Below, in pieces: positions 8,070-50,815 of a stretch of 64,000 bases of DNA. Each line of letters begins with the position of its first letter. The first letter of the stretch is position 1. The stretch covers positions 62,001-126,000 of the forward strand of contig NZ_JAJUWU010000014.1 in assembly GCF_021390325.1 (NCBI RefSeq), given 5' to 3'. Made by a program: the position numbers and the translations under genes. The notes under the pieces are model-generated. The model saw only the letters and a program-made list of their open reading frames with translations. It was not told where the DNA came from and searched no databases. The stretch is from Jiella avicenniae (lineage in GTDB: Bacteria > Pseudomonadota > Alphaproteobacteria > Rhizobiales > Rhizobiaceae).

Positions 8070-8483
8070 TCAGGCCTCGCCTTCCGGCTCCATCTGGCCG
8101 AAGGACGGCATCTCGTCGCGGATGCGCGACAGGACGCCGACGAAGGCCCGCGCGAAGCCGTGGAAGCGATCGCCGACTTCCTCGCGATCGGCCACCCGGA
8201 TCGCGTCGCCTTCGGCGTTGAGCACGGCGAAGAACACCCGCCCCCGGCTTTCGCCCGCCTCGCCCATGTGGATCGCGGCGATCTCGATGGCGTCCTCGAA
8301 GGACCCGTCCGTCGGCATGGCGAAGAGGAATTCGCCGCCGATCATCTCCGCGGCTTGCCGGACGCAGTCGGCAAATGCGACCTCGCCGAGGTCGCTCGTC
8401 CCGAGTGCCAGCTCGAACTCGACCGCCTCGACGCCTTCGCCGGCCTCGAACGGATCGGTCTCGACGGCTTGATTCATCTGCAT
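8070..8483 (-). CDS. Hypothetical acidic protein
   Basis: I do not recognise this 137-residue protein. It is strongly acidic, has no signal peptide or membrane segment, and looks soluble and alpha/beta (for example RGRVFFAVLNAEGDAIRV). The start at 8483 follows CGAGGGG at fair spacing; a longer frame to 8552 lacks a ribosome site. It lies convergent to the sigma/NrsF pair and divergent from the acyl-CoA ligase gene. Confidence 0.7.
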   Translation of the reverse strand: MQMNQAVETDPFEAGEGVEAVEFELALGTSDLGEVAFADCVRQAAEMIGGEFLFAMPTDGSFEDAIEIAAIHMGEAGESRGRVFFAVLNAEGDAIRVADREEVGDRFHGFARAFVGVLSRIRDEMPSFGQMEPEGEA

Positions 8484-8649
8484 GTCGAACCCCTCGTGTT
8501 TTTCGACCCTTGACGCGGTTGTGACGGCGGGAGGTGTCCAAACTTTGTCCACCGGAGCGCGACTTTACAAGGCGCTGCAATTGCCCCCACTCTGCCGGAA
8601 GGAGAAGCGGGGCCGGGAGAGCCCCGCACCGAACGGGGAGGACTTACGG

Positions 8650-10278
<1,629 letters not shown>

Positions 10279-12909: not shown

Positions 12910-13695
12910 TCAGGCGCCCCGCATTTCGCGCCGCATGGTCGGCAGGCCGATGCCGGCGGCATCGAAGCCGCCGTCCACGCCGAGGATCTGGCCGGTGACG
13001 TAGCTCGCGCGCGGCGAGCAGAGATAGAAGATCGCGTCGGCGAGCTCCTCTTCGAGGCCGTAGCGTTCCAGCGGGATCGTATCGCGATAGTCGGCGCGGA
13101 TGGCGTCGCTGTGGACCGCTTTCGCCATCGCCGTCTCGACCGGGCCGGGCGCGACGGCGTTGACGCGGATACCGAGATGGGCGAGCTCCACCGCCTGCTG
13201 CTTGGTCAGGTGCTTCAGACCGGCCTTGGAGGTGCCGTAGGCGACGCGCAGGGTGGAGGCGCGGAAGCCGGAGATCGAGGTGATGTTGACGATCGCCCCG
13301 CCGCCGGTCTTGGCCATCACAGGCGCACAAGCGTTTGTCATCAGGAACGGCCCCCCGAGATTGACGGCGAGCACCCGCTGCCACTCGTCGTGGGTGGTCT
13401 CGAGCAGAGGCTTGAAGACGGCGGTGCCGGCATTGTTGACCAGCGCATCCAGCCGCCCGAACGACGCCTCGACCGCTGCGACCGAGCGCATCACGGCACC
13501 GGGATCGGCGACGTCGGCGGTGATTGCCAAGGTATCGTCGGGCCGTTCCAGCGCCGCGACGGCCGCCTCCTGCGCCGCGCCGTCGACGTCGAGCAGCGCG
13601 ACCCGCCAGCCCTCCTCCAGAAAACGCTTCGCCGTCGCGAGGCCGATGCCCCGCGCCGCGCCGGTGACCAGCGCGACCTTCTGCTGTTCGGTCAT
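12910..13695 (-). CDS. SDR-family NAD(P)-dependent oxidoreductase
   Basis: A 261-residue classical short-chain dehydrogenase with cofactor motif TGAARGIG (11-18), NNAG (87-90), and catalytic Ser140 or Ser142, Tyr153 and Lys157 (YGTSK). An acidic Asp37 at the end of strand beta2 favours NAD over NADP. It acts on an alcohol or ketone that cannot be deduced. It lies 277 bp downstream of the IclR-thiolase-ligase-PPC operon on the same strand, separated by two palindromic repeats, so it may belong to that pathway (for example as a 3-hydroxyacyl dehydrogenase). That is inference. Ribosome site GGAG, 11-12 bases upstream. Confidence 0.9.
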   Translation of the reverse strand: MTEQQKVALVTGAARGIGLATAKRFLEEGWRVALLDVDGAAQEAAVAALERPDDTLAITADVADPGAVMRSVAAVEASFGRLDALVNNAGTAVFKPLLETTHDEWQRVLAVNLGGPFLMTNACAPVMAKTGGGAIVNITSISGFRASTLRVAYGTSKAGLKHLTKQQAVELAHLGIRVNAVAPGPVETAMAKAVHSDAIRADYRDTIPLERYGLEEELADAIFYLCSPRASYVTGQILGVDGGFDAAGIGLPTMRREMRGA

Positions 13696-13748
13696 TCGTT
13701 TCGTTCTCCGTCGTTTGATAGCAGTCCGGACGCGTCGCGCATCCGGCT

Positions 13749-13792
13749 ACCCCCCTCTGCCTGCCGGCATCTCCCCCGCAAGGGGGGAGATC
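13749..13792 (+). repeat. Dispersed palindromic repeat, copy 1
   Basis: About 44 bp: ACCCCCCTCTGCCTGCC, GGCATCTCCCCC and GGGGGGAGATC, able to fold through CTCCCCC/GGGGGAG. It is nearly identical to the block at 50772-50815 and is an inverted, more diverged partner of 13883-13934. Elements like this are common intergenic repeats in Rhizobiales. Confidence 0.8.
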
Positions 13793-13882
13793 GAACGCGT
13801 TTGTCGGACACGGCATGTCCGCGCATCCAATCCTCACGCCAACGGCCAGCAGCCTTGACTGCGGTTTGCCAAGGGCGAAGCT

Positions 13883-13934
13883 GCCAATCTCCCCCCTTGA
13901 GGGAAAGATGGCTGGCAAGCCAAAGGGGGGTGCC
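13883..13934 (-). repeat. Dispersed palindromic repeat, copy 2 (inverted)
   Basis: The reverse complement carries the same building blocks as copy 1 (CACCCCCCTTTGGC, CCATCTTTCCCTC, AAGGGGGGAGAT) but is more diverged. With 13749-13792 it brackets about 90 bp in the gap between the PPC-domain gene and the SDR gene. Confidence 0.75.
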
Positions 13935-13972
13935 ACGGCACGCCGCCAACCGGTCTTGCGGCAACGACGCCC

Positions 13973-14845
13973 TTATCCCTCCGGCACCACCACCAGCTCG
14001 AACGTCACGCAGACCGGATTGTCGCCGCGCACCAGCACGCCCTCGAATATCGTGCCGTCCATGGCGACGACGGCGACGTCGAGCCGCACGCGTCCGTCAT
14101 CCAGTCGCCCGTCGCGGATCAGCAGTTCGGATGCGTATGAATTCATCGGCGGTCCTTCCTCGAACCGCGCCTCGTTGAGGCTGCCGATACCGTGGATGCG
14201 GGCCCGGGTGATGCCCTCGTCCCGGCAGACGGCCTCGATCGCGAGGCAGACGTCCTGGTTCGGCCTGAGCGTCAGAGCAAGGCCTTGGGGAGCGTCCGAG
14301 GCCGGGCGAGCGGCGTTGTTCGGCTTGCGTTTGAGCGGCTCGGCGGCGAACAGGCGGAAATTCGTCTCCGGGTCCTCGCGCGACTCGAATGCCGCCCCAC
14401 GCAGGCCGATTCCCGTCACCCGAACCGGCTCGGCGGCGAAGCTGTCGGGCGGCAGCATGTGCCCCATGGCGAGCGCTCCGCCCGCCGGCCGCCAAGCTCC
14501 GTGGCAATGGACGAAGGGCGCGCCGTCGCGCCGACCGACGATGGCGCCGGCCTCTTCCACGGTCACCACGCCCTGCGGTGCGAAGGTCTCGGAATACCAC
14601 GCCGCATGGCTCGGCCTCGGAGAACCCGCCGGCATGACATAGCGGAACGGCATGAGCTTCGCGCCGGCAAGGCTCACATAGGCGGCATCGCAACCGGCCT
14701 CCGCGACGCCGCGGCCGAGACCCGCCTCCATGGCTTCGCCAGGCTCGACGACGAAGTCGAGCGCCACCGCCTCGCCCCAGGCCTTCGCATGACGGGTCGC
14801 CGCGGCCGGGCCCGGATGGCGGATCGTTCGCATCGCCCCGGCCAT
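13973..14845 (-). CDS. Tandem PPC/DUF296-domain protein
   Basis: A 290-residue protein with two PPC (DUF296) copies: an N-terminal one at about 20-165 containing PFVHCHGAWRP, and a more canonical one at about 180-290 with QDVCLAIEAVCRDEGITRARIHGIGSL. PPC domains form trimers, and most prokaryotic members carry a metal-binding histidine cluster; their reactions are unknown. The start lies 1 bp after the CoA ligase stop, so it is the last gene of a coupled operon (IclR, thiolase, ligase, PPC). The company of a thiolase and a ligase suggests a role with acyl-CoA intermediates or in regulation. The family assignment is from the second copy; the first copy is by position and weak similarity. Confidence 0.75.
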   Translation of the reverse strand: MAGAMRTIRHPGPAAATRHAKAWGEAVALDFVVEPGEAMEAGLGRGVAEAGCDAAYVSLAGAKLMPFRYVMPAGSPRPSHAAWYSETFAPQGVVTVEEAGAIVGRRDGAPFVHCHGAWRPAGGALAMGHMLPPDSFAAEPVRVTGIGLRGAAFESREDPETNFRLFAAEPLKRKPNNAARPASDAPQGLALTLRPNQDVCLAIEAVCRDEGITRARIHGIGSLNEARFEEGPPMNSYASELLIRDGRLDDGRVRLDVAVVAMDGTIFEGVLVRGDNPVCVTFELVVVPEG

Positions 14846-14846
14846 C

Positions 14847-16478
14847 TCAGGCGGCCGCCCCCGCGGTCAGGACGCCGCGCTCTTCCAGCGCCTGGCGCAC
14901 CAGCTTCTTGGTGATCTTGCCATAGGCCGATTTCGGCATCTCGTCGAAAAAGACGAAGCGCTTCGGCATCTTGTAGCGGGAGATCTTGTCGGCGAGGAAT
15001 GCGCCGACCTCGGCCTCCGTGACCGTCTCGCCCGAGACCGCGACGAGGACGGCGATGCCGACCTCGCCCCAGTCGGGATCCGGCACGCCGACGATCGCGG
15101 CTTCCGAGATCTTCGGATGGGCGAGGATCTTCTCCTCGATCTCCCGCGGATAGACGTTCGAGCCGCCGGAAATGTACATGTCGGAGGCTCGGCCGGTGAT
15201 GTAGAGATAGCCCGCCGCGTCCCGGTGTCCGAGATCGCCGGTGCAGAACCAGCCATTGCGGAAGGCCTTTAGATTCGCCTCCGGGTTGTCGTAATAGCCG
15301 GCAAAGACCGCCGGCCCGGCAACGCAGATCTCGCCCGACTGGCCGAGCGGCAGCTCGTTGCCGGCCTCGTCCTGGATCGAAATCTCGATGCCCGTGCGCT
15401 CGTAGCCGCATGTGCCGACCCTTGCCGTTTCGTCGTCGAGGCTGTGCTCGGCCGGCGGCAGGACGGTGATGTTGCCGGTCACCTCGCCGAGGCCGAAATA
15501 CTGGACGATGACGGGGCCGAGCTTTTCCAGCGCCCGCTTCTGGTCCGCCCGGTACATCGGCGCGCCGGCATAGATGACGTAACGCAGGGAGGAGTGATCG
15601 AAATCGTCCACCGCCGGATGCTCGACCAGCCGCTTCACGATGGTCGGCACGGTGAACATGTTGGAGACCTTGTAGCGCTCGACGAGCCCCCAGGCCTCTG
15701 CAACGTCGAAGCGCTCCGACGGCAGTAGCACGGTCGTCGCCCCCGCCGCCACCTGGGTGAGCTGGTGGACGCCCGCCCCGTGGGACAGCGGCGCGACGAC
15801 CAGCGAGACATCGTCCGACCCGGTGCCCGGCATCAGGTCGTTGAGATGATTGACGGCGACGAAGGCCATCTGGCCATGGGTCAGCACCGCCGCCTTGGGC
15901 CGCCCCGTGGTACCGGAGGTGAAGAAGAACCAGCAGGGATCGTCCCGGTCGACGTCGACATTGGCGACGTCTTGCCCGAGATGGGCCTCGACCAGCGCGT
16001 CGTAATCCTCGCCGAACGCTGCCTCGCCGATGGCGATGGTGAAATCCGGCGCGCGCTCCGAACGCTGGCAGGTCTCGGCATGAGCCGGAAAGCTGGCATT
16101 GCAGATCAGGCCGCTCGCCCCGCTGGCGGCAAGGAGATAGGCGACTTCCTCCGGCGTCTGGCGGAAATTGGTCGGCACATAGACCGCCCCCAGCCGGAAG
16201 CAGGCGAACATCGCCTCGAACATCTGGTTGCAGTTCTGCGACTGGACGAGGATCCGGTCGCCCTTCGTCACGCCGAATCGATCCCTCAGGGCAGCCGCCA
16301 TGGCGCCGACGCGGGCGTCGAAGTCCCGCCAGCTCCAGCGGCGCTCGCCCCATACGAGGGCCGGCCGATCGCCCAGCCGGCGCGCCGCCCGGGTGACGAG
16401 ATGGGCGAGGTTGGAGACGCGGGTCGATTGCGGCGCGACGCCTCCCTTCGGCGCGCCGGCCCCTGGAGCCTCGGCCAT
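14847..16478 (-). CDS. AMP-dependent acid-CoA ligase (feruloyl/acyl-CoA synthetase-like)
   Basis: A 543-residue adenylating enzyme with TSGTTGRPKAAVL at 187-199, the YFGLGEVTG active-site loop, GWFCTGDLG, and the C-terminal lysine segment KSAYGKITKKLV. It is distinct from the AlkK-like ligase at 8650. It probably converts an imported carboxylic acid to a CoA thioester. Its start overlaps the thiolase stop by one base (TAATG), and the PPC gene follows 1 bp later, so translation of all three is coupled. Given the divergent TRAP transporter, the substrate is likely an organic or aromatic acid; the sequence does not define which. Confidence 0.9.
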   Translation of the reverse strand: MAEAPGAGAPKGGVAPQSTRVSNLAHLVTRAARRLGDRPALVWGERRWSWRDFDARVGAMAAALRDRFGVTKGDRILVQSQNCNQMFEAMFACFRLGAVYVPTNFRQTPEEVAYLLAASGASGLICNASFPAHAETCQRSERAPDFTIAIGEAAFGEDYDALVEAHLGQDVANVDVDRDDPCWFFFTSGTTGRPKAAVLTHGQMAFVAVNHLNDLMPGTGSDDVSLVVAPLSHGAGVHQLTQVAAGATTVLLPSERFDVAEAWGLVERYKVSNMFTVPTIVKRLVEHPAVDDFDHSSLRYVIYAGAPMYRADQKRALEKLGPVIVQYFGLGEVTGNITVLPPAEHSLDDETARVGTCGYERTGIEISIQDEAGNELPLGQSGEICVAGPAVFAGYYDNPEANLKAFRNGWFCTGDLGHRDAAGYLYITGRASDMYISGGSNVYPREIEEKILAHPKISEAAIVGVPDPDWGEVGIAVLVAVSGETVTEAEVGAFLADKISRYKMPKRFVFFDEMPKSAYGKITKKLVRQALEERGVLTAGAAA

Positions 16479-17647
16479 TACTTCACCCGCTCGAGGATCG
16501 ACACGTAGTTGGCGACGGCGGCGCCGCCCATGTTGAACACGCCGGCGATCCTGGCGCCCTCGATCTGCATGTCGCCGGCCTCGTCCATGAGCTGCATCGC
16601 GGCCATGACATGCATGGAGACGCCGGTCGCGCCGATCGGATGGCCCTTGGACTTGAGGCCCCCGGACGGGTTCACCGGCAGCTTGCCGTCCTTGCGCGTC
16701 AGTCCCTCGCGCACGACCTTGTAGCCTTCGCCCCGCTTTGCCAGCCCCATCGCCTCGTATTCGATCATCTCGGCGATGGTGAAGCAGTCGTGGGTCTCGA
16801 CGAAGTCGAGATCGTCGAGGGTCAGCCCCGCCTCTTCCAGCGCCTTCGCCCAGGCCGTGCGGGCGCCGGCGAATTCGGTCGGGTCGCGCCGCGAGATGGC
16901 GAGGACGTCGTTGGCGTGCTGGCGCGCCCGGAAGGCGATCGCCCGCTCCAGCGTCTCGGCGGTCTCCTCGTCGGCGAGGACGATCGCCGCCGCCCCGTCG
17001 GAGACCAGCGAACAGTCGGTGCGCCTCAGCGGCCCCGCGACATAGGGGTTCTTGTCGGAGACGGTGTTGCAGAAGTCGAAGCCGAAATCCTTGCGCATGT
17101 GGGCGAAGGGGTTCGCCATGCCGTTGGAATGGTTCTTCGCGGCGATCATCGCGAGTTCCTCCGAGCGGTCGCCGAACTTCTGGAAATAGGTCTGGGCGAT
17201 GCGGCCGAAGATGCCGGCAAAGCCGCCCTCGACCTCCGCCTCTTCCTCGCGGTAGCTGGCGCCGAGGAGGATGTCGCCGACCTCGACGGTCGGGATCGCG
17301 GTCATCTTCTCGGCGCCGACGACGAGGGCGATCCGGCCGCGGCCGGATTCGATGAAGTCCATCGCCGTGTAGAGAGCGGCCGAGCCGGTGGCGCAGGCGT
17401 TTTCCATGCGGACCGCCGGCACCTGGCCGAGCCCGTCATGGGCCATGCCGACGAGAGCGCCCTGGAAGTCCTGCTTGGAAAAGCCGTTGTTCATGACGCC
17501 GACGAAGATGCCGTCGACGTCGCTCGTCTCGATGCCGGCATGGGCGATGGCGGGGCCGACGACCTCGCCCATCAGGGCCTGGGTCGAGGGGGCCTCGACC
17601 TTGCCGAAACGGCCGTGCGACCAGCCGACGATGCGTGCCTTGCTCAT
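16478..17647 (-). CDS. Thiolase-family acyltransferase (SCP2-type)
   Basis: A 389-residue thiolase-fold protein related to the SCP2/acetyl-CoA acetyltransferase group. Nucleophile Cys85 sits in MENACATGSAALY. The histidine motifs are ETHDCFTIAE and SKGHPIGATG. The usual C-terminal CxGGG loop reads FNMGGAAV, without the second cysteine. It may cleave a 3-ketoacyl-CoA made from the ligase product, or form a carbon-carbon bond. Members without the second cysteine often work with a small DUF35/OB-fold partner, which is not seen here. It overlaps the IclR gene by 4 bp (ATGA) and the ligase gene by 1 bp. Confidence 0.88.
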   Translation of the reverse strand: MSKARIVGWSHGRFGKVEAPSTQALMGEVVGPAIAHAGIETSDVDGIFVGVMNNGFSKQDFQGALVGMAHDGLGQVPAVRMENACATGSAALYTAMDFIESGRGRIALVVGAEKMTAIPTVEVGDILLGASYREEEAEVEGGFAGIFGRIAQTYFQKFGDRSEELAMIAAKNHSNGMANPFAHMRKDFGFDFCNTVSDKNPYVAGPLRRTDCSLVSDGAAAIVLADEETAETLERAIAFRARQHANDVLAISRRDPTEFAGARTAWAKALEEAGLTLDDLDFVETHDCFTIAEMIEYEAMGLAKRGEGYKVVREGLTRKDGKLPVNPSGGLKSKGHPIGATGVSMHVMAAMQLMDEAGDMQIEGARIAGVFNMGGAAVANYVSILERVK

Positions 17648-18558
17648 GATCCGATACCTCCCAGAAAAACGGTTTGGCGGGGCGCCTCGGCGGGGGTGAT
17701 CCCGGCCACCGGCCGGCCGCTCGCCGCAGGCGCGGTAAAGCGCCGTCGCAGCCGCGTCTCGACCTTGGCGGCCTCGGCCGAAAGATGCCGAAAGAGTTCA
17801 TCCTGGCGCGGCTCGCCCATCCGCCCGTCGATCGCGGCGATGGACAGGGCGCCGGCGACGTGGCCGTCGGGATAACGGACGGCCATGCCGATCGCCCAGG
17901 AATTCGTCAGGACCCGCCCCGGATTGAGGGCATAGCCGCGGTCCCGGGCGAAGGCGACGTCCGCCGAAATCGCCTCCGGCGTATAGGCGGGATAGCGCTC
18001 GGCGAGCGCTGCGGCATTGGCTGCGAGGATGCGCTCGATCTCGGCGTCGGAAAGCGCCGCCAGCATCGCCATGGCCCCGGCGCCGACACCCAGCGGATGC
18101 CGCTGCCCGGGCAGAAGCGCATGGGTGCGGATTGGAAAGGCGCCTTCCTCGCGGTGCAGGCAGACCGAAAAGTCGCCGCGGCGGACGCAGGCGAAGCTCG
18201 TGTCGCCGCTGATCCTCGACAGGGTTGCGAGGCTTTCCAGCGCGCAGTCGAGAAAGCCGAAGCGGTGGGACGCCAGAACGCCGAGGACATAGGCCTCCTC
18301 GCCGAGGAAATAGCGCCGGGTGACCGGATCCTGCTCGACGAGGCGCGAGCGGATCAAGGCGAGCACGAGCCGGCGCGCCGTCGGACGGTTCAGGCCGCTC
18401 TCCTCGACGATGGCGGCCAGCGTCGCGCCCTTCTCGCAGTGGCGGCCGATCAGCGAGAGCAACGTCAGCGCCCGGTCGACGCTCTGCGCTCCACCGTTTT
18501 CCGCCGTGGCCTTTTCCAGCGTATCCAAGCCTTCACCGTCCAGATTGTGGACATCCAT
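17644..18558 (-). CDS. IclR-family transcriptional regulator
   Basis: A 304-residue regulator with an N-terminal winged helix (about 22-85, including LAAIVEESGLNRPTARRLVLALI) and a C-terminal IclR effector domain (about 95-270, with GVGAGAMAMLAALSDAE and NSWAIGMAVRYPDGHVAGALSIAA). IclR proteins bind small organic acids. It is the first gene of the minus-strand operon and diverges from the TRAP operon. The two TCCA-N5-TGGA sites, one inside its first codons and one near the TRAP leader, suggest that it controls both directions and itself. The first ~20 residues before the helix are not conserved, so the start could lie slightly later. Confidence 0.9.
   Translation of the reverse strand: MDVHNLDGEGLDTLEKATAENGGAQSVDRALTLLSLIGRHCEKGATLAAIVEESGLNRPTARRLVLALIRSRLVEQDPVTRRYFLGEEAYVLGVLASHRFGFLDCALESLATLSRISGDTSFACVRRGDFSVCLHREEGAFPIRTHALLPGQRHPLGVGAGAMAMLAALSDAEIERILAANAAALAERYPAYTPEAISADVAFARDRGYALNPGRVLTNSWAIGMAVRYPDGHVAGALSIAAIDGRMGEPRQDELFRHLSAEAAKVETRLRRRFTAPAASGRPVAGITPAEAPRQTVFLGGIGS
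18538..18552. promoter_or_regulatory. Candidate IclR operator 1
   Basis: The 15-bp inverted repeat GTCCAGATTGTGGAC has the core TCCA-N5-TGGA. It covers codons 3 to 7 of the iclR gene, where binding would block early transcription of iclR. It shares its core with the site at 18646-18658, 107 bp away. Confidence 0.55.
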
Positions 18559-18645
18559 TCGTCGAGATCATTGTCGCGGAACCGAAATGAACTTGCAAGC
18601 ACCGAGCCGTGATGGCACCTTGCGCCTCCTTGGCGGGTGAGGCCA

Positions 18646-18658
18646 TCCACAATGTGGA
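18646..18658. promoter_or_regulatory. Candidate IclR operator 2
   Basis: TCCACAATGTGGA is a perfect 6-bp inverted repeat about one central base, with the same TCCA-N5-TGGA core as operator 1. It lies 88 bp upstream of the DctP ATG, in the divergent control region. A shared core in two palindromes, both next to an IclR gene, is why I link them to that regulator. Confidence 0.6.
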
Positions 18659-18746
18659 CCTCGGGAGGGAGCTAGCCGGACCCGCAATCCGCATCCGGGC
18701 CGGCGGGGCCTCGTTCACGCCGGGGATCAATCTGGGAGGAAGCACC

Positions 18747-19763
18747 ATGAAACTGAAGCATCTCGCCACCGCAGCGGCCTTCGTCGCCGCCGTCGCGGCC
18801 ACCGCATTGACGCCGGCGAACGCCGAGACGTTCCGCCTGTCCCACAACACCAACGACACCACGACCTGGCAGAAGGGCGCCGAGAAGTTCAACGAGTTGC
18901 TGAAAGCGGGCTCGAACGACGAGATGGAGGTTCGCATCTTCCCGAACGCCCAGCTGACCGGCGGCGATCAGATGAAGCAGGCCGAGATGGTCGGCCGCGG
19001 CGCTCTCGACTTCGTCGTCACCTCGGCGATCAACGTCACCCCGCTGGTGCCCGAGATGGCGGTGTTCTCGCTGCCCTATCTCTACACGGACTACGACGAC
19101 GTCGATGCGACCACCTCCGGCAAGCCGGGCGAGCGCATGACCGAGATCCTGGCGAAGAAGGGGATCGTCGTCCTCGCCTGGGGCGAGAACGGCTTTCGCG
19201 AGGTCACCAACAACGTCCATCCGATCAAGGCGCCGGCCGATCTGAAGGGCCTGAAGATGCGCGTCGCCGGGCCGATGTACATCGACGTGATGAACGCTCT
19301 CGGCGCCAATCCGCAGCAGATGCAGTGGACGGAGACCTTCTCGGCCCTGCAGCAGGGCGTCGTCGACGGCCAGGAAAACCCGATCGGCGCGGTGATCATC
19401 CCGCAGCGCGTTTACGAAGTGCAGAAGTACATCACCCCCTGGCACTATTCCTACGACCCGATCTTCATCGGCGTCAGCCAGAAGCTGTGGGATTCCTGGG
19501 ACGCCGAGAAGCAGGCGATGGTGCGCGACGCGGCCGAGCAGGCGATGACCTACCAGAAGCAGATCACCCGCGAGGACACCGCCAAGGGCCTCGAATTCCT
19601 CAAGGAAAAGGGCATGGAAGTCTACGAGCCGAGCGCCGAGGAGATCGACGCGTTCCGCCAGGCGACCAAGCCCGCCTTCGACACCTGGGCCGAAAAGGTC
19701 GGTCCGGATCTCGTCTCGCTCTTCCAGGAGACGATTTCGGCCGGCGAGAAGCCCGCGAACTGA
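18747..19763 (+). CDS. TRAP transporter substrate-binding protein, DctP family
   Basis: A 338-residue periplasmic protein. Residues 1-26 are a signal peptide ending ANA. The mature part shows DctP landmarks: HNTNDTTTWQKGAEKFNELL, GGDQMKQAEMVGRGALDF, the arginine-bearing DLKGLKMRVAG, and ETFSALQQGVVDGQENPIG. It captures an organic acid for the DctQM permease; the conserved arginine of LKMRVAG would bind a carboxylate. The start at 18747 follows GGGAGGAAGCACC. An upstream in-frame ATG is rejected because it would remove the signal peptide from the N-terminus. A strong hairpin separates it from the DctQ gene. The neighbouring CoA ligase suggests the ligand is an acid activated to a CoA ester. 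Confidence 0.93.
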   Translation: MKLKHLATAAAFVAAVAATALTPANAETFRLSHNTNDTTTWQKGAEKFNELLKAGSNDEMEVRIFPNAQLTGGDQMKQAEMVGRGALDFVVTSAINVTPLVPEMAVFSLPYLYTDYDDVDATTSGKPGERMTEILAKKGIVVLAWGENGFREVTNNVHPIKAPADLKGLKMRVAGPMYIDVMNALGANPQQMQWTETFSALQQGVVDGQENPIGAVIIPQRVYEVQKYITPWHYSYDPIFIGVSQKLWDSWDAEKQAMVRDAAEQAMTYQKQITREDTAKGLEFLKEKGMEVYEPSAEEIDAFRQATKPAFDTWAEKVGPDLVSLFQETISAGEKPAN

Positions 19764-19771
19764 CGCCGGGC

Positions 19772-19796
19772 GGGGCGGCGGTCCGGCCGCCGTCCC
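19772..19796 (+). terminator. Intercistronic hairpin after DctP
   Basis: A 10-bp stem (19772-19781 with 19787-19796, one G-T pair) with a 5-base loop lies 8 bp past the DctP stop. It has no T run. It is likely an attenuator or 3'-end stabiliser that raises DctP levels over DctQM. Confidence 0.6.
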
Positions 19797-19877
19797 TTCG
19801 GCCATCGCGGCCCGATGGCCCGCGCCGACGCCCATCGGCGGCCGGCAGGGCGACATTCCATCAACCCGAGAAGCATC

Positions 19878-20384
19878 ATGCGTCACCTCCTCGACGAGGC
19901 GGAAAAGATCGTCTGCGCCGTCATCTTCCTCGCCATGACGGCGCTCGGATTCGTCAATGTCGTGGTGCGCTATCTGACGAGCTATTCCTTCGCCGCGACG
20001 CAGGAGCTGCTGCTCGACGGCTTCCTGCTTCTCACCGTCTTCGGCGCGGCGATCGCGGCGCGGCGCGGCGAGCATCTCGCGGTGACGCTCGTCACCGACC
20101 TTCTGCCCCCGGGCGGCCGGCGGGTGGCGGTGGCCTTTTCGGCGGCGCTGTCGATCCTGCTCCTCGCCTTGTCGGCCTGGTACACGTTCGATCTCGTCCA
20201 GAACCAGTTCCAGAGCGGCGTCACCTCCTCGGGCATGCAGATCCCCGAATGGTACGTGTCGCTCGGCCTGCCGGTCGGCTTCGCGCTGATCGCCATCCGC
20301 CTGGTCCAGGCCGGGATCGCCGAATGGCGGGCGGCGGGCGCCGCCGGCGAATACGGACGCGGTGACGGCAAGGGAGAGATCTGA
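19878..20384 (+). CDS. TRAP transporter small permease, DctQ family
   Basis: A 168-residue inner-membrane protein with four predicted helices and the DctQ pattern EKIVCAVIFLAMTALGFVNVVVRY, then ELLLDGFLLLTVFGAAIAARRGEH. DctQ helps the large subunit assemble and couple to the binding protein. It starts at 19878, 114 bp after the DctP stop, and ends 2 bp before the DctM start. Confidence 0.92.
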   Translation: MRHLLDEAEKIVCAVIFLAMTALGFVNVVVRYLTSYSFAATQELLLDGFLLLTVFGAAIAARRGEHLAVTLVTDLLPPGGRRVAVAFSAALSILLLALSAWYTFDLVQNQFQSGVTSSGMQIPEWYVSLGLPVGFALIAIRLVQAGIAEWRAAGAAGEYGRGDGKGEI

Positions 20385-20386
20385 CC

Positions 20387-21721
20387 ATGCTCGATCTCGA
20401 TCCCGGCACGGCGATGGTCGTCCTGTTCTTCGTGCTGCTGGCCCTGCGCGTGCCGGTCGCCTTTGCCCTCGGCCTCTCCTCGCTCTACGCCATGTGGCAG
20501 ATCGGTTTCGGCCTCGATCTCGTCGGCGACCTCCTGTCGAGCGGCATCGCCAAGTTCTCGCTGCTCGCCATCCCGTTCTTCATCCTCGCCGGGGCGCTGA
20601 TGGGCACGGTCGGCATCGCCGAACGGATGATCCGCTTCTTCCGGGTGCTGGTCGGCGATTTGCCCGGCGGCATGGGCGTCGTGGGCACCGTGGTGTGCCT
20701 CTTCTGGGGCGCCGTGTCCGGCTCCGGCCCGGCCTCGGTGGCGGCGATCGGCCCGCTGATCATCCGCGGCATGGAAGAGGACGGCTATCCGAAGCCCTTC
20801 GCCGCCGCCCTCGTCTGCACCGGGGCGGCCTTGTCCATCGTCATTCCGCCGTCGATCGGTCTCGTCATCTACGGCGTCATCGCCGAAACCTCGATCGCCC
20901 AGCTCTTCATCGCTGCGATCATTCCCGGCCTCGTCATGGGTCTTTTGATGATCGCGACGCTGCCCTTTGCCGGCAAGGCGCGGCATGCCGCCGCGACGGC
21001 GGCTTCCGGCGGCGGCCTCGCCGCGCTCGCGCCAAAGCCCTATGCGGGGTTTTCCTACCCCGCCCGGCTCGGCCGCGCCTTCGTCGACGCCTTCTGGGGC
21101 CTGCTCACCCCCGTGGTGATCCTCGGCGGCATCTATGCCGGCGTCTTCACGCCCACCGAAGCGGCGATCGTCGCGACCGTATACGCCCTGTTCGTCGGGC
21201 TCGTCATCTATCGCAGCCTGACGGTGAAGACGCTCTATTTGGCGCTGGTCGAGGCGAGCGCCTCCTCGGCCGTCGTCATGCTGGTCGTCACCTTCGCCAG
21301 CCTGTTCGGCTGGGTGGTGACGGTCGACGATCTCGTCGGCAAATATTCCGGCGCCCTCCTGGCGATGAGCGACAACCAGTGGGTCATCCTCGCCGTCATC
21401 ATGGTGGTGGTGCTGATCGCCGGCATGTTCATGGACGCGATCACGATCATGTTCATCGCCCTGCCGATCTTCCTGCCGGTGGTGCGCGAACTCGGCTGGG
21501 ACCCGGTCTGGTTCGGCGTCGCCCTGATGGTCAATCTCGCCATCGGCCTGTTCACGCCGCCGGTCGGGATCAACCTCTTCGTCGCGGCGAACATCACCCG
21601 TCTGTCGCTGGAGAAGATCGCGCTCGGCGCCCTGCCCTTCCTTCTCACCAGCCTCGTCGGCCTGGCGATAATCGCCGCGTTCCCGGAGATCTCGCACGTC
21701 CTCCTGCAATTCATGCAGTGA
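20387..21721 (+). CDS. TRAP transporter large permease, DctM family
   Basis: A 444-residue protein with about 12 hydrophobic segments, the sodium-coupled channel subunit of the TRAP system. Family signatures are AIPFFILAGALMG, LFWGAVSGSGPASVAAIGPLII, PPSIGLVIYG, and the late GLFTPPVGINLFVA. AGGGAGAG precedes the ATG. It is the last gene of the operon; the siderophore reductase gene converges 24 bp downstream. Confidence 0.94.
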   Translation: MLDLDPGTAMVVLFFVLLALRVPVAFALGLSSLYAMWQIGFGLDLVGDLLSSGIAKFSLLAIPFFILAGALMGTVGIAERMIRFFRVLVGDLPGGMGVVGTVVCLFWGAVSGSGPASVAAIGPLIIRGMEEDGYPKPFAAALVCTGAALSIVIPPSIGLVIYGVIAETSIAQLFIAAIIPGLVMGLLMIATLPFAGKARHAAATAASGGGLAALAPKPYAGFSYPARLGRAFVDAFWGLLTPVVILGGIYAGVFTPTEAAIVATVYALFVGLVIYRSLTVKTLYLALVEASASSAVVMLVVTFASLFGWVVTVDDLVGKYSGALLAMSDNQWVILAVIMVVVLIAGMFMDAITIMFIALPIFLPVVRELGWDPVWFGVALMVNLAIGLFTPPVGINLFVAANITRLSLEKIALGALPFLLTSLVGLAIIAAFPEISHVLLQFMQ

Positions 21722-21745: not shown

Positions 21746-22783
21746 TCACCGGGTCCAGTAGGCCGAGATGTAGGTTTCCTCGAGAGAGACGCCGAGCCCG
21801 TCGCGGAAATGCTTGCGCGCCTCGCGCGCGAGGTCCCGCTCGGCGGCGATCCAGACGAAGCGGCTCTCTCCCGCCGGGGGAAACGGAACCGAGAGGATCG
21901 CGTCCCACAGGCCCGGCCCCTCGCCGCGGATCAGCCACGTCACCGTCATGCCGGCCGGCGCGGCCATCTCGACCCTGTCGGCCGGATCGCCGAGTTCGAT
22001 GAAGGCATGCCCGCGCCGGTCGGGCCGCGACGTCTCGACGATGCGGCGGATCGCCGGCAGCGCCGTCTCGTCCCCGGCGATCACCATAAACGCGCCCGGC
22101 GGCAGCTCGCCGCCGCCCGGTCCGGCGACGCCGACCTCCTCGCCCGGCCGGACGGACGCCGCCCATGTCGTCGCGAGCCCGCCTTCGTGAAGATAGAGAT
22201 CGAAGGAGAAGCGGCCCTTCTCCGGGTCGACCTCGACGAAGGTGTAGGCAGGCCGGTGCAGCGCATCCTCGCCCTTCGGCCAGATGCTTCGGCCGCTCGC
22301 GTCGAGGCGCGGCCAGACGGGCGTACGGCCCTCGGGCGGGATCGCGAGCCGGAAATGCATGCCGCCCTCCAGAAGGCTTGACGCGGCTTCGCAACCGAGC
22401 GTCAGCCGCAGGAAATTCGGCGAGATCCGCTCTCTGGAGATGAAACGCGCCAGGCGGAAGTTCGGCGGGAAGATGCCGCTGGTCGGCAGATCACCTTGCC
22501 ACGACATGCGGTCGGAGAGCTGCGGAGCGACATGGTCGAGGAGATGCAGGAGCGCCTCGCGCATCTCGTGGATCTTGCCGACGTCGCGGGCCGCGATCGT
22601 GACGGCGAAGCCTTCGCCGGCGATCTTGGCTTCGATCCACCCGACCGGCAAGGCGACCGCAAGGGCATTCTCCTGCCGGGTGACGGGATAGCCGTGCCCG
22701 GCGATTTCGTCGGCCAGATCGGCGATCAGGGTGTCGGCGAAGGGCCGCGTCGCGAGGCCTGTGGCATGGGCGGAAAACGTCAT
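21746..22783 (-). CDS. DUF2218 - siderophore-interacting protein (ferric-siderophore reductase)
   Basis: A 345-residue fusion. Residues about 1-95 are a DUF2218 domain (HATGLATRPFADTLIADLADEIAGH, EMREALLHLLDHVAPQL). Residues about 105-345 are a SIP-family FAD-binding and NAD(P)H-binding reductase unit: RPAYTFVEVD (FAD contact), GPGGGELPPGAFMVIAGDETALPAI, and the C-terminal EETYISAYWTR. SIP enzymes reduce ferric siderophore in the cytoplasm and release iron. It follows the permease gene by 82 bp as the last gene of the iron-uptake operon, which fits that role. The ribosome site is GAAGGAAGAG. Confidence 0.92.
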   Translation of the reverse strand: MTFSAHATGLATRPFADTLIADLADEIAGHGYPVTRQENALAVALPVGWIEAKIAGEGFAVTIAARDVGKIHEMREALLHLLDHVAPQLSDRMSWQGDLPTSGIFPPNFRLARFISRERISPNFLRLTLGCEAASSLLEGGMHFRLAIPPEGRTPVWPRLDASGRSIWPKGEDALHRPAYTFVEVDPEKGRFSFDLYLHEGGLATTWAASVRPGEEVGVAGPGGGELPPGAFMVIAGDETALPAIRRIVETSRPDRRGHAFIELGDPADRVEMAAPAGMTVTWLIRGEGPGLWDAILSVPFPPAGESRFVWIAAERDLAREARKHFRDGLGVSLEETYISAYWTR

Positions 22784-22865
22784 CTGCTCTTCCTTCGAAC
22801 ATCGGCGCGGCCCGACGCAAGCGTCTTCAAAGGTGCCGGGTCCGGTTTCAAGTCACGAGATCGGC

Positions 22866-24881
22866 TCATGCGGCGCCCGCTCCGCTGCGGCGGCGCCCGG
22901 TGAGAAGGATGAAGCCGAGGCTGCCGAAAAGCCCGGCGACGAGGCCCCCCGGCAGCTGCCACGGGCTCATCGCGACACGGCCGACGAAGTCGGACGCGAC
23001 CATGACGACGGCGCCGAAGAGTGCCGTCGCGGCGACATGCGCGGCGAGCAGCCGGGTCCCGAACAGCCGCGCCAGATGCGGCGCGATGAGCCCGACGAAG
23101 CTGAGCGGTCCGATGATCATCGTCGCCGCACTGGCAAGGAGCGCGGCGAGAAACAGCGTCGCCGCCTGGACCGCGCGGACTTTCAGGCCGAGGGCCTGCG
23201 GCAGTTCGGCGCCGAGATCGAGCAGCCCGATCGGCCGGCGGCAGGCCAGGACGAGGCCGAGGGAGGCAGCGAGGAAGACGGCGAGCCAGAGCGTTTCCGG
23301 CAGCGAGACGAGCACCGTCGAGCCGGACAGCCAGGTCAGCAGCGTCGCCGCCTGCATCGAGGCGTTGGCCAGCGCGATCCGGACGATGGAATCGAGAAAC
23401 ACGCCGAGCGCGATGCCGGCGAGGAGCACGGCGGCGATCTGGTCCCGGTGCCGACGGGCGAACCACAGGACGATCAGGGTGGCGCCGATCGCACCGAGAA
23501 AACCGGAAAGGAGCAGCAGCGTCCGCGAGACGACGCCGAAGATCAGGGCGACCAGCACGATGGCGGCGGCCGCGCCGTTGCTGATGCCCAGAAGCTCGGG
23601 GCTCGCAAGGTCGTTGCCGACGATCTTCTGGACGAGCAGGCCGGAGAGCGCGATCGCAGCGCCGGCGAGGCCCGCACCGAGCACCCGCGGCAGCCGGGCG
23701 AGAAGCAGCGTCCCGTCTCCGGCCGGATCGAGCAGCTCCCAGCCGGCGCCGGTCCGCCCGATCGTCAGGGCGGCCGCGGCGACGAGACCGAGGAGGAGGC
23801 CGAGCTTCAGGAACAGGCCGGGACCGGCATCTTCGAAGGTCCCGGCGGAGCGAAGCGCCGACGGCTTCGGGCGGGTCTGAAGACGCGTGCGTGCCAAAAG
23901 CAGGAACAGGACCGGCGCGCCGAACAGCGCCGTCACCGCGCCGGCGGGGACGAGCCTGCCGCTCGCCCCGGACAGAAGCTGGGCGAGTGCGTCGGCGGCG
24001 AACAGAGCGAGCGCGCCGAGGCCGGCCGAAGCGAGCAGCGTCACGGCGACCGAGCGCGGCCGGCAGAGCCGCACGACCGCCGGGATCGCAAGGCCGACGA
24101 AGCCGACGATGCCGACCCGCGCGACGACCGCGGCGGTCAGCGCGACGGCGACGAGAAGGACCGCCACGCGCGCGGTCTCGGTCCTGAGCCCGAGGCTCTC
24201 GGCGAGGCCGTCGCCGACGGCGAGCAATCCGATCACCCGGGCCGAAGCCACGAGGACAGCGGCTGCGACGACGAAGGCGAGACTGAGGACGACGGCGCCC
24301 GTCCAGTCCGACTGGGCGAGGTGGCCTGAACCCCAGAGGAACAGAAAGGCGAGCTGCTGCTCGTTGAACAGGACGAGCGCGGCGGAGGCCGCCGAGAGAA
24401 ACAGGCTGATCGCCATGCCGGCAAGGGCGAGTTTCGCCGGCTCGAAATCGTGCCGCTTGCCGATCAGATGGACGAGGCCGGCCGCACCGAGGGCGCCGAG
24501 AAAGCTCCAGGCCTCGCGCGGCAGGAACGCCGCCGAGGGCCCTGCGAGCGCGGCGAGCGCCAGCGCGAACTGCGCGCCGGTCGCAACGCCGAGCGTCGTC
24601 GGCGACGCCAGCGGGTTCCGCAGCACCGTCTGCATCGCCGCGCCGGCGAGCCCGAGCGAAGCACCGGCGAGCAGCGAGACGACGAGCCGCGGCAGCGTCG
24701 CATAGTGGAACATCACCGCCGCGAAGACGTCCCCCGGCGGGTCGAACAGGCCGAGCCGCACGACGTGAAACGTCAGTCGCGGGTCCCAGCCGGCCGCCAG
24801 CGTCGCCGCGCCCAGCAACGCCAGCGCCAGGGCGACGCCGGTGAGCCTTGCCGCAGGCGCGGAGGAGACGGAGGTCGTCAG
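22866..24881 (-). CDS. Ferric-siderophore ABC permease, double (FhuB-like)
   Basis: A 671-residue membrane protein made of two FecCD-type permease halves (about 20-325 and 345-660), as in FhuB. Each half has the conserved cytoplasmic coupling loop: GLAGAAMQTVLRNPLASPTTLGVATGA in the first, and LSGLLVQKIVGNDLASPELLGISNGA in the second. It imports the iron complex with the adjacent ATPase and binding protein. No ATG, GTG or TTG lies in frame between the last upstream stop and the first helix except in clearly antisense-like sequence. The best start is CTG at 24881-24879, which overlaps the stop of the binding-protein gene (CTGA). A sequencing error near the junction is the alternative. Confidence 0.9.
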   Translation of the reverse strand: MTTSVSSAPAARLTGVALALALLGAATLAAGWDPRLTFHVVRLGLFDPPGDVFAAVMFHYATLPRLVVSLLAGASLGLAGAAMQTVLRNPLASPTTLGVATGAQFALALAALAGPSAAFLPREAWSFLGALGAAGLVHLIGKRHDFEPAKLALAGMAISLFLSAASAALVLFNEQQLAFLFLWGSGHLAQSDWTGAVVLSLAFVVAAAVLVASARVIGLLAVGDGLAESLGLRTETARVAVLLVAVALTAAVVARVGIVGFVGLAIPAVVRLCRPRSVAVTLLASAGLGALALFAADALAQLLSGASGRLVPAGAVTALFGAPVLFLLLARTRLQTRPKPSALRSAGTFEDAGPGLFLKLGLLLGLVAAAALTIGRTGAGWELLDPAGDGTLLLARLPRVLGAGLAGAAIALSGLLVQKIVGNDLASPELLGISNGAAAAIVLVALIFGVVSRTLLLLSGFLGAIGATLIVLWFARRHRDQIAAVLLAGIALGVFLDSIVRIALANASMQAATLLTWLSGSTVLVSLPETLWLAVFLAASLGLVLACRRPIGLLDLGAELPQALGLKVRAVQAATLFLAALLASAATMIIGPLSFVGLIAPHLARLFGTRLLAAHVAATALFGAVVMVASDFVGRVAMSPWQLPGGLVAGLFGSLGFILLTGRRRSGAGAA

Positions 24882-25789
24882 CGGTCCGTCCCCGTCAGTG
24901 CCGCGGCGATCGCATGTGCCATGGTTTTCGCCGAATCGATGCCGCCGAAGGTCCAGGTGATCGGCAAGGCGTGCACCCTGCCCGCCCGGACCGCCGGCAG
25001 GGCCTTGCCGAGCGGCGTGGCGAAGACCGAGGCCATCGCTTCGTCGGTCACCGGCCCGGCGACGACGATGGCGGCATCCGGGTCCTCGGCGAGCACGCTC
25101 GGCTCGGTCAGGGCGAAGCCCCATTCGTTGACGTCGCCGGGATAGGCGTTGGTCAGGCCGAGCCGGGAGAGCACGGTGTCGGCGATCGAGCCCTTGCCAT
25201 GGACGCGAAGGGCGTTCGGCCCGATGATCCGGACGAAATAGACGTGGCGCCCCGCAAGCCCGGCCGACTGCAGCGCCTTCGCCTCTTGCCCGAAGGTCTC
25301 GTCGGCGGAGGCGATCAACGCCTCGGCCTTGCCGGTTTCGCCGAGCAGATCGCCTATCCTGCGGGTGCATTCGACGACGGTCGCATAGGCGTCGCCGCCG
25401 GTGCCGTTGAACGTGATCTCTTCCACCGGGGCGAGCGCCGCGAGCTTCTCCTTCAACGGCCTCAGATGCGCGTGGGAGAGGACGAGATCGGGCTTCAGCC
25501 GGGCGATCTCCTCCAGATTGGGTTCCTGCCGCGAGCCGACGCCGGCGACGGTCTCGGGAAGGGCAGGTTCGCCCACCCATTCGCGGTAGCCCTCAGCATC
25601 GGCGGCGCCGACCGGCGGACGGCCGAGGGCGAGCAGCGTTTCGAGCGCGGCCCACTCCATGACGACGATCCTTTGCGAAGATGCCGTGCCGGTCGCTGGT
25701 TCCTGAGCGCCGGCGGCAACGGGCGCGGCGGCGAGGGCCGCGACGAAGAGGGCGAGGACGGTGCGGCGGATCGAAGGCAGAAAGAGCAT
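24878..25789 (-). CDS. Ferric-siderophore ABC substrate-binding protein (FhuD-like)
   Basis: A 303-residue periplasmic protein. Residues 1-29 are a signal peptide (AAPVAAGAQ). The mature part has the class III binding-protein fold: RIVVMEWAALETLLALG, LEEIARLKPDLVLSHAHLRPLKEKL, a long linking helix, and PDAAIVVAGPVTDEAM. It delivers an iron-siderophore complex to the permease. It lies 21 bp after the ATPase gene and overlaps the permease start. The ligand is not predictable; FhuD-like proteins of this shape often bind hydroxamates. Confidence 0.9.
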   Translation of the reverse strand: MLFLPSIRRTVLALFVAALAAAPVAAGAQEPATGTASSQRIVVMEWAALETLLALGRPPVGAADAEGYREWVGEPALPETVAGVGSRQEPNLEEIARLKPDLVLSHAHLRPLKEKLAALAPVEEITFNGTGGDAYATVVECTRRIGDLLGETGKAEALIASADETFGQEAKALQSAGLAGRHVYFVRIIGPNALRVHGKGSIADTVLSRLGLTNAYPGDVNEWGFALTEPSVLAEDPDAAIVVAGPVTDEAMASVFATPLGKALPAVRAGRVHALPITWTFGGIDSAKTMAHAIAAALTGTDR

Positions 25790-25810
25790 GATGGTCGGGT
25801 CCAGCCGTGG

Positions 25811-26641
25811 CTAAAGCGGATAGACGACGGTCGGCCCGCTTTCCTGCGGGCGGACCGTCGCGATCGGAAGGTCGAAGATGTCGGAGAGGATGCCAGGCTC
25901 GAGGAGATCCTCGGGCGGGCCGGCGAAGGCCGCCCGGCCATGTTTCAGCGCGATCAGATGGTCGGCGAAGCGGATCGCCATGCCGACGTCGTGGATCGCC
26001 ATGACGATGGTCAGCCGGCGCCGCTCCTTCAGGGCCCGGAGCAGTCGCAGCACCTCGATCTGGTGCCTCAGGTCGAGGGCGGCGGTCGGCTCGTCGAGCA
26101 AAAGGCAGGACGGCTCCTGGGCAAGCAGCATGGCGAGCCAGGCGCGCTGGCGCTCGCCGCCGGACAGGCTGGCCATCGCCCGTTCGGCCATGTGGGCGAG
26201 GCCGACCTGTTCGAAGGCATCGGCGACGGCGCGGCGATCGTCGTCGCGATGCCGGGCGAAGGCGCCTCGCCAGGGATAGCGGCCGAGCCGGGCGACCTCG
26301 GCGACCGTCATGTTCGCCGCCTCGGGCGGATGCTGCGGCAGCCAGCCGACACGGCGGGCGAAATCCCGCGTCCCGTAGCTCGCAGCCGGCGCGCCGGCAA
26401 AGACCAGTTCTCCTTCGCTCGGCGCGAGCTGGCGGGCCAGGAGCGACAGGAGCGTCGACTTGCCCGACCCGTTGTGGCCGAGAAGGGCGACGAAGCGCCC
26501 GGCCGGAATCTCCAGATCGAGGGGCGAGAGAATTCGCGTGCCGCCGACGGCGTAGCCGACCGCCTTCAACGCGAACAGCGCGGCGCCCGCGGCTGGAGGC
26601 CCCGCGAGCGCCGCGCCGCCACCGATGGGAGCAATGGCCAT
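25811..26641 (-). CDS. Ferric-siderophore ABC ATPase (FhuC-like)
   Basis: A 276-residue ATP-binding protein with Walker A GHNGSGKST (55-63), the Q-loop near WLPQHPPEA, signature LSGGERQRAWLA, Walker B CLLLDEPTAALD, and the switch histidine in MAIHDVGMA. It powers the import of ferric siderophore. The N-terminal ~22 residues (an Ala/Gly/Pro-rich stretch) are longer than usual, so a later start is possible, although AAGGAG sits 12-13 bases before this ATG. It begins 6 bp after the receptor stop, in one operon. Confidence 0.93.
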   Translation of the reverse strand: MAIAPIGGGAALAGPPAAGAALFALKAVGYAVGGTRILSPLDLEIPAGRFVALLGHNGSGKSTLLSLLARQLAPSEGELVFAGAPAASYGTRDFARRVGWLPQHPPEAANMTVAEVARLGRYPWRGAFARHRDDDRRAVADAFEQVGLAHMAERAMASLSGGERQRAWLAMLLAQEPSCLLLDEPTAALDLRHQIEVLRLLRALKERRRLTIVMAIHDVGMAIRFADHLIALKHGRAAFAGPPEDLLEPGILSDIFDLPIATVRPQESGPTVVYPL

Positions 26642-50691: not shown

Positions 50692-50738
50692 GATCTCCCC
50701 CTTTGCGGGGGAGATGGGTGGCAACCCAGAGGGGGGTG
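50692..50738 (-). repeat. Dispersed palindromic repeat, copy 3 (inverted)
   Basis: It reads ATCTCCCCCTTTGCGGGGGAGATGG then GAGGGGGGTG. The first part is a hairpin (ATCTCCCCC/GGGGGAGAT). Its reverse complement matches the building blocks of 13749-13792. Confidence 0.8.
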
Positions 50739-50771: not shown

Positions 50772-50815
50772 GCACCCCTCTGCCTGCCGGCATCTCCCCC
50801 GCGAGGGGAGAGATC
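50772..50815 (+). repeat. Dispersed palindromic repeat, copy 4
   Basis: It matches the block at 13749-13792 closely (CACCCCTCTGCCTGCC, GGCATCTCCCCC, GAGATC). It faces copy 3 (50692-50738), so the two form a large inverted repeat after phaB. Confidence 0.8.

Follow-up and report, generated by a model that had tools for sequence, protein, structure and literature searches.

An AMP-forming acyl-CoA ligase, an SCP2-type thiolase, a TRAP transporter, an IclR-family regulator and a double-domain PPC/PCC (DUF296) protein constitute a genuine gene set that is widely shared among bacteria and not a local peculiarity of the 64,000-nucleotide stretch of Jiella avicenniae DNA analysed here (hereinafter the window). 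In our preferred reading, to which we tentatively accord somewhat less than an even chance, these genes form a single IclR-controlled regulon for the catabolism of an acetolactate-type acid, with the PPC protein functioning as a metalloenzyme akin to acetolactate decarboxylase (ALDC). The window features are:

12910..13695, minus strand: SDR oxidoreductase (Pfam adh_short_C2, 3e-70), falling into one sequence cluster with the module SDRs found at other loci
13749..13931, no strand: paired inverted repeat with core CTCCCCCGCAAGGGGGGAG, in the PPC-SDR gap
13973..14845, minus strand: double PPC/PCC (DUF296) protein, with the invariant H113, H115 and H129 in its first domain
14847..16478, minus strand: AMP-forming acyl-CoA ligase (Pfam; above the NCBIfam PRK07470 equivalog cut-off, 921.9 vs 774 bits)
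16478..17647, minus strand: SCP2-type thiolase (NCBIfam PRK07516), with NAC Cys85, HDCF at 286-289, GHP at 335-337 and a terminal NMGG
17644..18558, minus strand: IclR-family regulator (Pfam HTH_IclR 3.8e-12, IclR_C 2.1e-10)
18747..19763, plus strand: DctP solute-binding protein (SBP; Pfam), nearest solved structure 4p8b; start preferred by eye
19878..20384, plus strand: DctQ small TRAP permease (PF04290, 1.1e-27); start preferred by eye, the longest ORF running from 19815
20387..21721, plus strand: DctM large TRAP permease (PF06808, 3.1e-104)

The ORF coordinates bear out the order and tight spacing reported in the first-pass annotation, with a 4-bp overlap between iclR and the thiolase gene, a 1-bp overlap between thiolase and ligase, and gaps of 1 bp between ligase and PPC and 277 bp between PPC and SDR; the Pfam families agree for all eight genes from the SDR through dctM. 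The core of the repeat in the last of these gaps recurs as a second pair at 50695 and 50794, giving four matches at three or fewer mismatches vs 0.08 expected.

The same annotation had viewed these genes as an IclR-linked unit for importing, activating and cleaving an acid, and both the gene set and its conservation uphold this. Among 249 genomes of the same order, a ligase ortholog occurs in 57, including all 47 with a PPC match (the other 10 of the 57 yielded none); counted by genus, the ligase is present in 24/24 PPC genera vs 26/112 overall (hypergeometric 2e-22, ignoring shared ancestry). The ligase-PPC link is thus beyond chance. It extends to physical proximity: for 36 of the 38 order loci with a full-length PPC, the fetched stretch also contains the ligase, as do 17 of the 18 plasmid PPC loci examined, which were drawn from 62 matching records. 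Proximity of the PPC gene to such genes, which would have told against the first-pass view if confined to the window, recurs across many loci: 80 named ligase-centred loci have the PPC protein in 65 (fused or as a gene pair), IclR in 70, thiolase in 44, PPC and thiolase together in 39, and an SBP of one of two kinds in 69 by direct comparison (63 by clustering). The PPC gene is not nearby in the remaining 15, of which 11 have 8 kb on both sides of the ligase. The two samples overlap (L033 is L125 and L034 is L161), so that seven compared gaps amount to six different ones, and L133 and L160 share one contig. The module spans Alphaproteobacteria and at least one betaproteobacterial plasmid (Variovorax), and in Paracoccus denitrificans PD1222 it runs from PDEN_RS23975 through PDEN_RS24005; we found no prior description of it in the open-licence PubMed Central literature.

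The suggestion that the SDR completes the module holds in part. An SDR of its cluster is found in 53/80 ligase-centred loci (this figure and the other SDR count, 38, refer to cluster members at any position in the locus), but its closest relatives (L101, L158, L152 and L113, 56-59%) are placed at the TRAP end in three cases and after the PPC gene in only one. A second module SDR has no clear ortholog in the J. avicenniae genome (best 40% identity).

A regulatory signature accompanies the gene set. The iclR/dctP region of the window contains the palindrome GGTCCA-N5-TGGACC, at two sites:

18538..18552, no strand: candidate IclR operator 1, GTCCAGATTGTGGAC, shared palindrome
18645..18659, no strand: candidate IclR operator 2, ATCCACAATGTGGAC, shared palindrome, 107 bp from operator 1

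Across the 70 named loci with IclR, TCCA-N5-TGGA occurs 66 times within the 23.8 kb that precede iclR vs 67 times in 1294.8 kb elsewhere, a 54-fold enrichment. The palindrome lies upstream of iclR in 41 loci and near the first same-strand TRAP gene in 22 more, that is, at one or other place in 63/70, and at neither in 7/70. We infer that it is the IclR-binding site. Operator 1 falls inside the opening codons of iclR as predicted, unless the gene truly starts further in. Additional regulon members in the same genome were sought and rejected: RTCCA-N5-TGGAY has 13 sites vs 9 for the reversed pattern, which leaves the tandem pair at iclR/dctP as the one conspicuous case. One palindrome site, at C4:100781, is near an ORF named by eye as a probable class III CoA-transferase.

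The PPC/DUF296 domain is best studied in the plant AHL transcription factors, and its DNA-binding name comes from these plant members; for the prokaryotic members structures exist, and we know of no assigned function. The window protein has no NCBIfam match, and Pfam PF03479 scores only its second domain (40.9 bits vs a cut-off of 25). Its first PPC domain is backed by hhalign to single-domain PPCs (98%) and by a structure model (pLDDT 95.7), and in one homolog split into a gene pair (L119) both halves exceed the PF03479 cut-off. Three histidines, H113, H115 and H129, are invariant in 55/55 sequences of a first alignment (54 of 58 loci plus the window, having dropped L070, L071, L076 and L078, where the best hit was a part-length gene) and in 45/45 of a second; alignment A4 used 44 of 60 reference sequences. 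In the split pairs, the first gene carries the HxH...GH signature and the second lacks it in the seven examined of 12 loci. Foldseek supports the fold, with the top match to the model titled 'Metal-containing Protein AF0104' and a further match to 2dt4, titled PPC (E 8e-7). The single-domain PPC/PCC proteins AF0104 (2h6l), PH0802 (2dt4) and 3hwu share this fold and an HxH...GGH motif like that of the window protein's first domain. In contrast to them, the window family has two domains, either fused in one protein or encoded by paired genes, with the His triad in the first only, and is accompanied by the ligase in 47/47 PPC genomes of the order survey. The PPC protein looks like a metal-dependent enzyme.

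The same motif brings in ALDC (BudA/AldC), which has a zinc site and is placed with AF0104 in one SCOP fold class. ALDC displays an HxHF...GGH motif, and single-domain PPCs match it weakly over 106 co-linear columns including the HxH...GGH (hhalign P 0.0012), in a set chosen by a regular expression for this very motif (25/27 loci had it; L204 was removed, and hhalign read 23/24). The score is 29.1, a value that 100 column shuffles did not reach (highest 25.3), and among 12 unrelated control pairs one, ALDC-thiolase, reached P 0.049. For the double PPCs the match is not significant (P 0.15 and 0.12) and is confined to the motif; a merged first-domain profile scores 24.2, the highest shuffled score being 23.8. 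PF03306 (ALDC) has no Pfam match in the window protein and no member in the genome, ALDC is absent from the best 50 of 595 Foldseek matches to the PPC model, and the metal motif is in the first domain of the window PPC but in the last of ALDC. The PPC protein is possibly related to ALDC.

The transporters provide a separate pointer to the substrate. The commoner SBP kind, found in 52/80 loci at 57-100% to the SBP of L142, matches 4oan (R. palustris RPB_2686; E 1.6e-163 for the L142 protein), which was presumably deposited with 2-acetolactate. The window DctP is of the other kind (17/80 loci), 26-28% identical to seven aligned sequences of the 4oan kind and closest to 4p8b (H16_A1328; 38% identity). 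An EFI survey, as summarized in a passage of a review that leaves the protein unnamed, recovered 2-acetolactate as a new TRAP ligand (PMC5812351). Acetolactate-synthase-like genes beside the module were discarded as a substrate clue, being present only in Roseomonas (L076, L151) among L032-L169.

The 4oan kinship and the weak PPC-ALDC resemblance both point to a 2-hydroxy-3-oxo acid group, and the substrate would be a small hydroxylated carboxylic acid, most likely a 2-hydroxy-2-alkyl-3-oxo acid of the acetolactate type or the corresponding 2,3-dihydroxy acid. We infer the following scheme, in which the bound metal, substrate, reaction and order of steps are all proposed. The acid would enter through the TRAP transporter, the SDR would set the oxidation state at C3, and the ligase would form the CoA ester; the thiolase, through Cys85 and the HDCF Cys288, would then convert the 3-oxoacyl-CoA to acetyl-CoA and a 2-hydroxyacyl-CoA. 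The first PPC domain would hold an ALDC-like three-His metal site, with the His-less second domain as its structural partner, and may act on the 2-hydroxy-3-oxo group, whether of the free acid or of the CoA ester, by migration of a carboxyl or acyl group, by racemisation, or by a cleavage that is either hydrolytic or decarboxylating. We found no description of such a CoA-dependent pathway for acetolactate-type acids in the open-licence literature.

It is also a serious possibility that the same conserved regulon, with the same metal-dependent PPC enzyme, serves another acid or CoA ester altogether. An SDR, a ligase and a thiolase fit any 3-hydroxy acid, the solved structures nearest the ligase are fatty-acyl and feruloyl-CoA synthetases, and the PPC protein could be, for example, a hydrolase, lactonase or isomerase in the breakdown of 3-hydroxy acids or aromatic side chains. 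Two diverged SBP kinds in one slot suggest that the ligand could vary, and SDRs together with a decarboxylase would be superfluous for acetolactate, which counts against it as the sole substrate. The 4oan kinship, with its presumed ligand, and the weak ALDC resemblance speak instead for 2-hydroxy-3-oxo acids.

A regulatory role of the PPC protein in the operon, through DNA binding or ligand sensing, is suggested by the database name 'PPC domain-containing DNA-binding protein' but appears improbable. This annotation is often attached to the second gene of the split pairs, and the titles of 3hwu and 3htn likewise read putative DNA-binding; however, control could already come from IclR and the shared palindrome, and the top structural match is titled metal-containing.

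Less probable still is the first-pass proposal that the PPC protein serves as a thiolase subunit or chaperone, substituting for a DUF35 partner. The premises fared unequally. The thiolase C-terminus does carry MGG instead of CxGG, and PF01796 (the DUF35 OB domain) indeed has no match in the genome, which is 97.65% complete. However, the idea that the lost cysteine calls for a partner is not supported: all 44 thiolases have the NAC nucleophile (window Cys85), an HDCF loop with Cys288, and a C-terminus of NMGGA or NMGGT. The window HDCF aligns with that of the trypanosomatid SCP2-type thiolase 4bi9 (phmmer 1.2e-56), which shares the NAC nucleophile, HDCF Cys, GHP His and NMGG end, and differs from the window enzyme in that the latter is bacterial and encoded in a ligase-TRAP operon. 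We take the HDCF Cys to be the second catalytic cysteine, and the apparent loss of the CxGG cysteine is then explained by this SCP2-type loop. The best solved relative, 7yvy, slightly above 4bi9, has HDAF rather than HDCF. While thiolase and PPC do co-occur at 39/80 loci, thiolase is missing from 26 of the 65 PPC loci, which ties the PPC protein to the ligase and not to the thiolase. Moreover, a partner role leaves no obvious place for the invariant His triad, whose retention favours an enzyme over an OB-fold substitute or thiolase helper.

That the PPC gene is a mere passenger outside the pathway is scarcely credible, for although it lacks a nearby ligase on one Skermanella plasmid (L083) and stands alone in the order loci L051 and L067, it is accompanied by the ligase in every PPC genome of the order survey and, where moved to the TRAP side of iclR (e.g., L129, L130, L142), is still kept within the locus.

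Returning to the metalloenzyme reading, we put forward, as a proposal on the unlikely side, that the two-domain PPCs, fused or paired, are a new class of metal-dependent ALDC relatives, acting on 2-hydroxy-3-oxo acids or the CoA esters of these by rearrangement or cleavage in a CoA-dependent pathway for acetolactate-type acids. Firmly embedded in a catabolic set with a defined transporter, a ligase and a shared palindrome, the PPC pair lends itself to direct functional testing. Should the relationship to ALDC prove true, a domain known from plant regulators would be connected with a metalloenzyme fold, and a route by which acetolactate-type acids are broken down would come to light; and, if such a two-domain enzyme class exists, the PPC/DUF296 domain may have had an ancestral catalytic role.

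An ORF map of the window contains all the genes, strands, overlaps and gaps described in the first-pass annotation, and domain searches place the module genes in the claimed families. Judged by eye, the most likely starts of dctP and dctQ are 18747 and 19878.

12910-13695, minus strand, SDR
13973-14845, minus strand, double PPC (DUF296, PF03479) protein
14847-16478, minus strand, ligase
16478-17647, minus strand, thiolase
17644-18558, minus strand, iclR
to 21721, plus strand, dctP, dctQ and dctM (TRAP transporter)
13771-13789 and 13889-13907, paired inverted repeat, core CTCCCCCGCAAGGGGGGAG
50695-50713 and 50794-50812, paired inverted repeat, core CTCCCCCGCAAGGGGGGAG

Between the PPC gene and the SDR lies a paired inverted repeat, which is present at one other site in the window; it looks like a REP-type interspersed element (four core matches versus 0.08 expected; spacing within a pair about 100-120 bp), and hence the SDR may formerly have lain closer to the PPC gene. 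Downstream on the minus strand (21746-26641) is a siderophore-type uptake set, comprising by eye a siderophore-interacting protein, a 904-aa ORF with a FecCD-like permease, a binding protein and an ATPase. Near the module, beyond the SDR, a 598-aa ORF (8482-10278) appears by eye to be a further AMP-forming acyl-CoA ligase.

The module is real and widespread, and is well supported as a unit. Across 249 genomes of the same order, PPC matches (E<=1e-5) occur in 47 and the ligase (E<=1e-140) in 57, including all 47 with PPC, so that the predicted co-occurrence is not unique to the window; by genus, the ligase is found in 24/24 with PPC versus 26/112 overall. In this survey it lies within the same fetched stretch in 36 of the 38 loci with a full-length PPC gene (exceptions L051 and L067), and likewise in 17 of 18 loci examined among the 62 plasmid records that matched PPC, including Paracoccus denitrificans, Agrobacterium, Sinorhizobium meliloti, Roseomonas and Sulfitobacter. 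Among these plasmid loci, those of Chelatococcus and Phyllobacterium lack the thiolase, that of Variovorax has LysR where others have IclR, and only Skermanella lacks the ligase. On this Skermanella mucosa plasmid (L083), the full-length double PPC gene adjoins partition and sugar genes, and its neighbourhood lacks a ligase.

A ligase-alignment scan independent of PPC yielded 587 confirmed matches, the best 80 of which are the named loci. These contain PPC in 65 (61 with a fused gene, 12 with a gene pair, 8 with both), IclR in 70, the thiolase in 44, and SDRs of two sequence clusters, anywhere in the locus, in 53 and 38; PPC is present in 58 of the 69 with at least 8 kb on each side. In six genomes of one genus, g23 (L208, L210, L211, L213, L215, L216), the ligase ortholog has no recognised module part nearby, save for a single SDR at L210's edge; this suggests a different use of the ligase.

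The thiolase had been described as lacking its second cysteine. The C-terminal CxGG cysteine is indeed absent, but an HDCF cysteine, conserved in 44/44 module thiolases, aligns with that of the trypanosomatid SCP2-thiolase 4bi9 (alanine in the companion entry 4bia). In contrast, 7yvy, the best-scoring solved relative, has HDAF; thus, it is the motif that supports the SCP2 grouping. Many genomes, some of them without the module, have another thiolase clade, which shares about 60% identity with the window's thiolase. The genome has no match to the DUF35 OB-domain model PF01796. The proposal that PPC stands in for a DUF35 partner is unlikely, as 26 of the 65 PPC loci (best 80 of 587) lack the thiolase; PPC therefore goes with the ligase.

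PPC itself is most likely a metalloenzyme. His113, His115 and His129, along with S85, P195, S222, E240 and E283, are invariant in 55/55 fused proteins, and all of these, together with E160, are retained in another set, of 45 sequences. Foldseek with the confident AlphaFold2 model (pLDDT 95.7) gave eight matches at E<=0.001: 2h6l (titled metal-containing), 2dt4 (PPC), 3hwu and 3htn (putative DNA-binding; three chains), and the unnamed 2nmu, 2hx0 and 2p6y, which we take to be PPC proteins too. Some genomes, including those of Roseomonas and Azorhizobium, encode the two domains in separate adjoining genes; HxH...GH is in the first and absent from the second in the 7 of 12 loci inspected, and PF03479 matches each half of the L119 pair. 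Eight loci (L107, L109, L110, L111, L114, L118, L135, L160) have a fused gene plus a split pair, i.e., two adjoining paralogous sets, with the pair downstream on the opposite strand in five.

SCOP groups AF0104, a PPC protein, with acetolactate decarboxylase (ALDC), and the 8 ALDC proteins used have HxHF...GGH. Single-domain PPC aligns with ALDC over 106 co-linear columns (hhalign P 0.0012; 12 control pairs, 0.049 or worse), scoring 29.1 against a maximum of 25.3 in 100 column shuffles. However, the double PPC profile reaches only P 0.12, and the merged profile (24.2) barely exceeds shuffles (23.8); hence, this sequence relationship is suggestive, not proven.

Aligning seven iclR-dctP gaps, six of them different, revealed a common palindrome, GGTCCA-N5-TGGACC. 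Across the 70 IclR-containing named loci (from the best 80 of 587), TCCA-N5-TGGA has 66 matches in 23.8 kb upstream of iclR versus 67 in 1294.8 kb elsewhere, with at least one site in 41 loci and at least two, 85-150 bp apart, in 24. Another 22 loci carry a site no more than 350 bp from the 5' end of the first same-strand TRAP ORF, as do 22 of the 29 loci with co-directional TRAP and iclR; in 7/70, neither place has one. In the window's own genome, the tandem pair is confined to the iclR-dctP region. The palindrome is a proposed IclR-binding site, and control of the module is likely shared; in L109, L114, L118 and similar one-way loci, its placement likely puts PPC within a single transcription unit. 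L092, L093 and L159 have one SDR upstream of these sites.

The commoner solute-binding protein of the named loci (best 80 of 587), the L142 kind (52/80), matches 4oan (R. palustris RPB_2686), which was reportedly deposited with 2-acetolactate; the window's DctP, of the kind found in 17/80, is nearest to 4p8b, perhaps deposited with the same ligand. This kinship to 4oan would point to acetolactate independently of the PPC-ALDC comparison. A review counts 2-acetolactate among new TRAP ligands, leaving the protein unnamed (PMC5812351). A 2-hydroxy-3-oxo acid would fit these enzymes, as would the corresponding 2,3-dihydroxy acid after oxidation by the SDR; the CoA ester would form first, followed by thiolysis releasing acetyl-CoA. 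ALDC chemistry on the chelated 2-hydroxy-3-oxo acid would be a natural task for PPC, and its retention at loci without the thiolase would fit such a cleaving or isomerising role. An acetolactate-type substrate is a lead worth testing.
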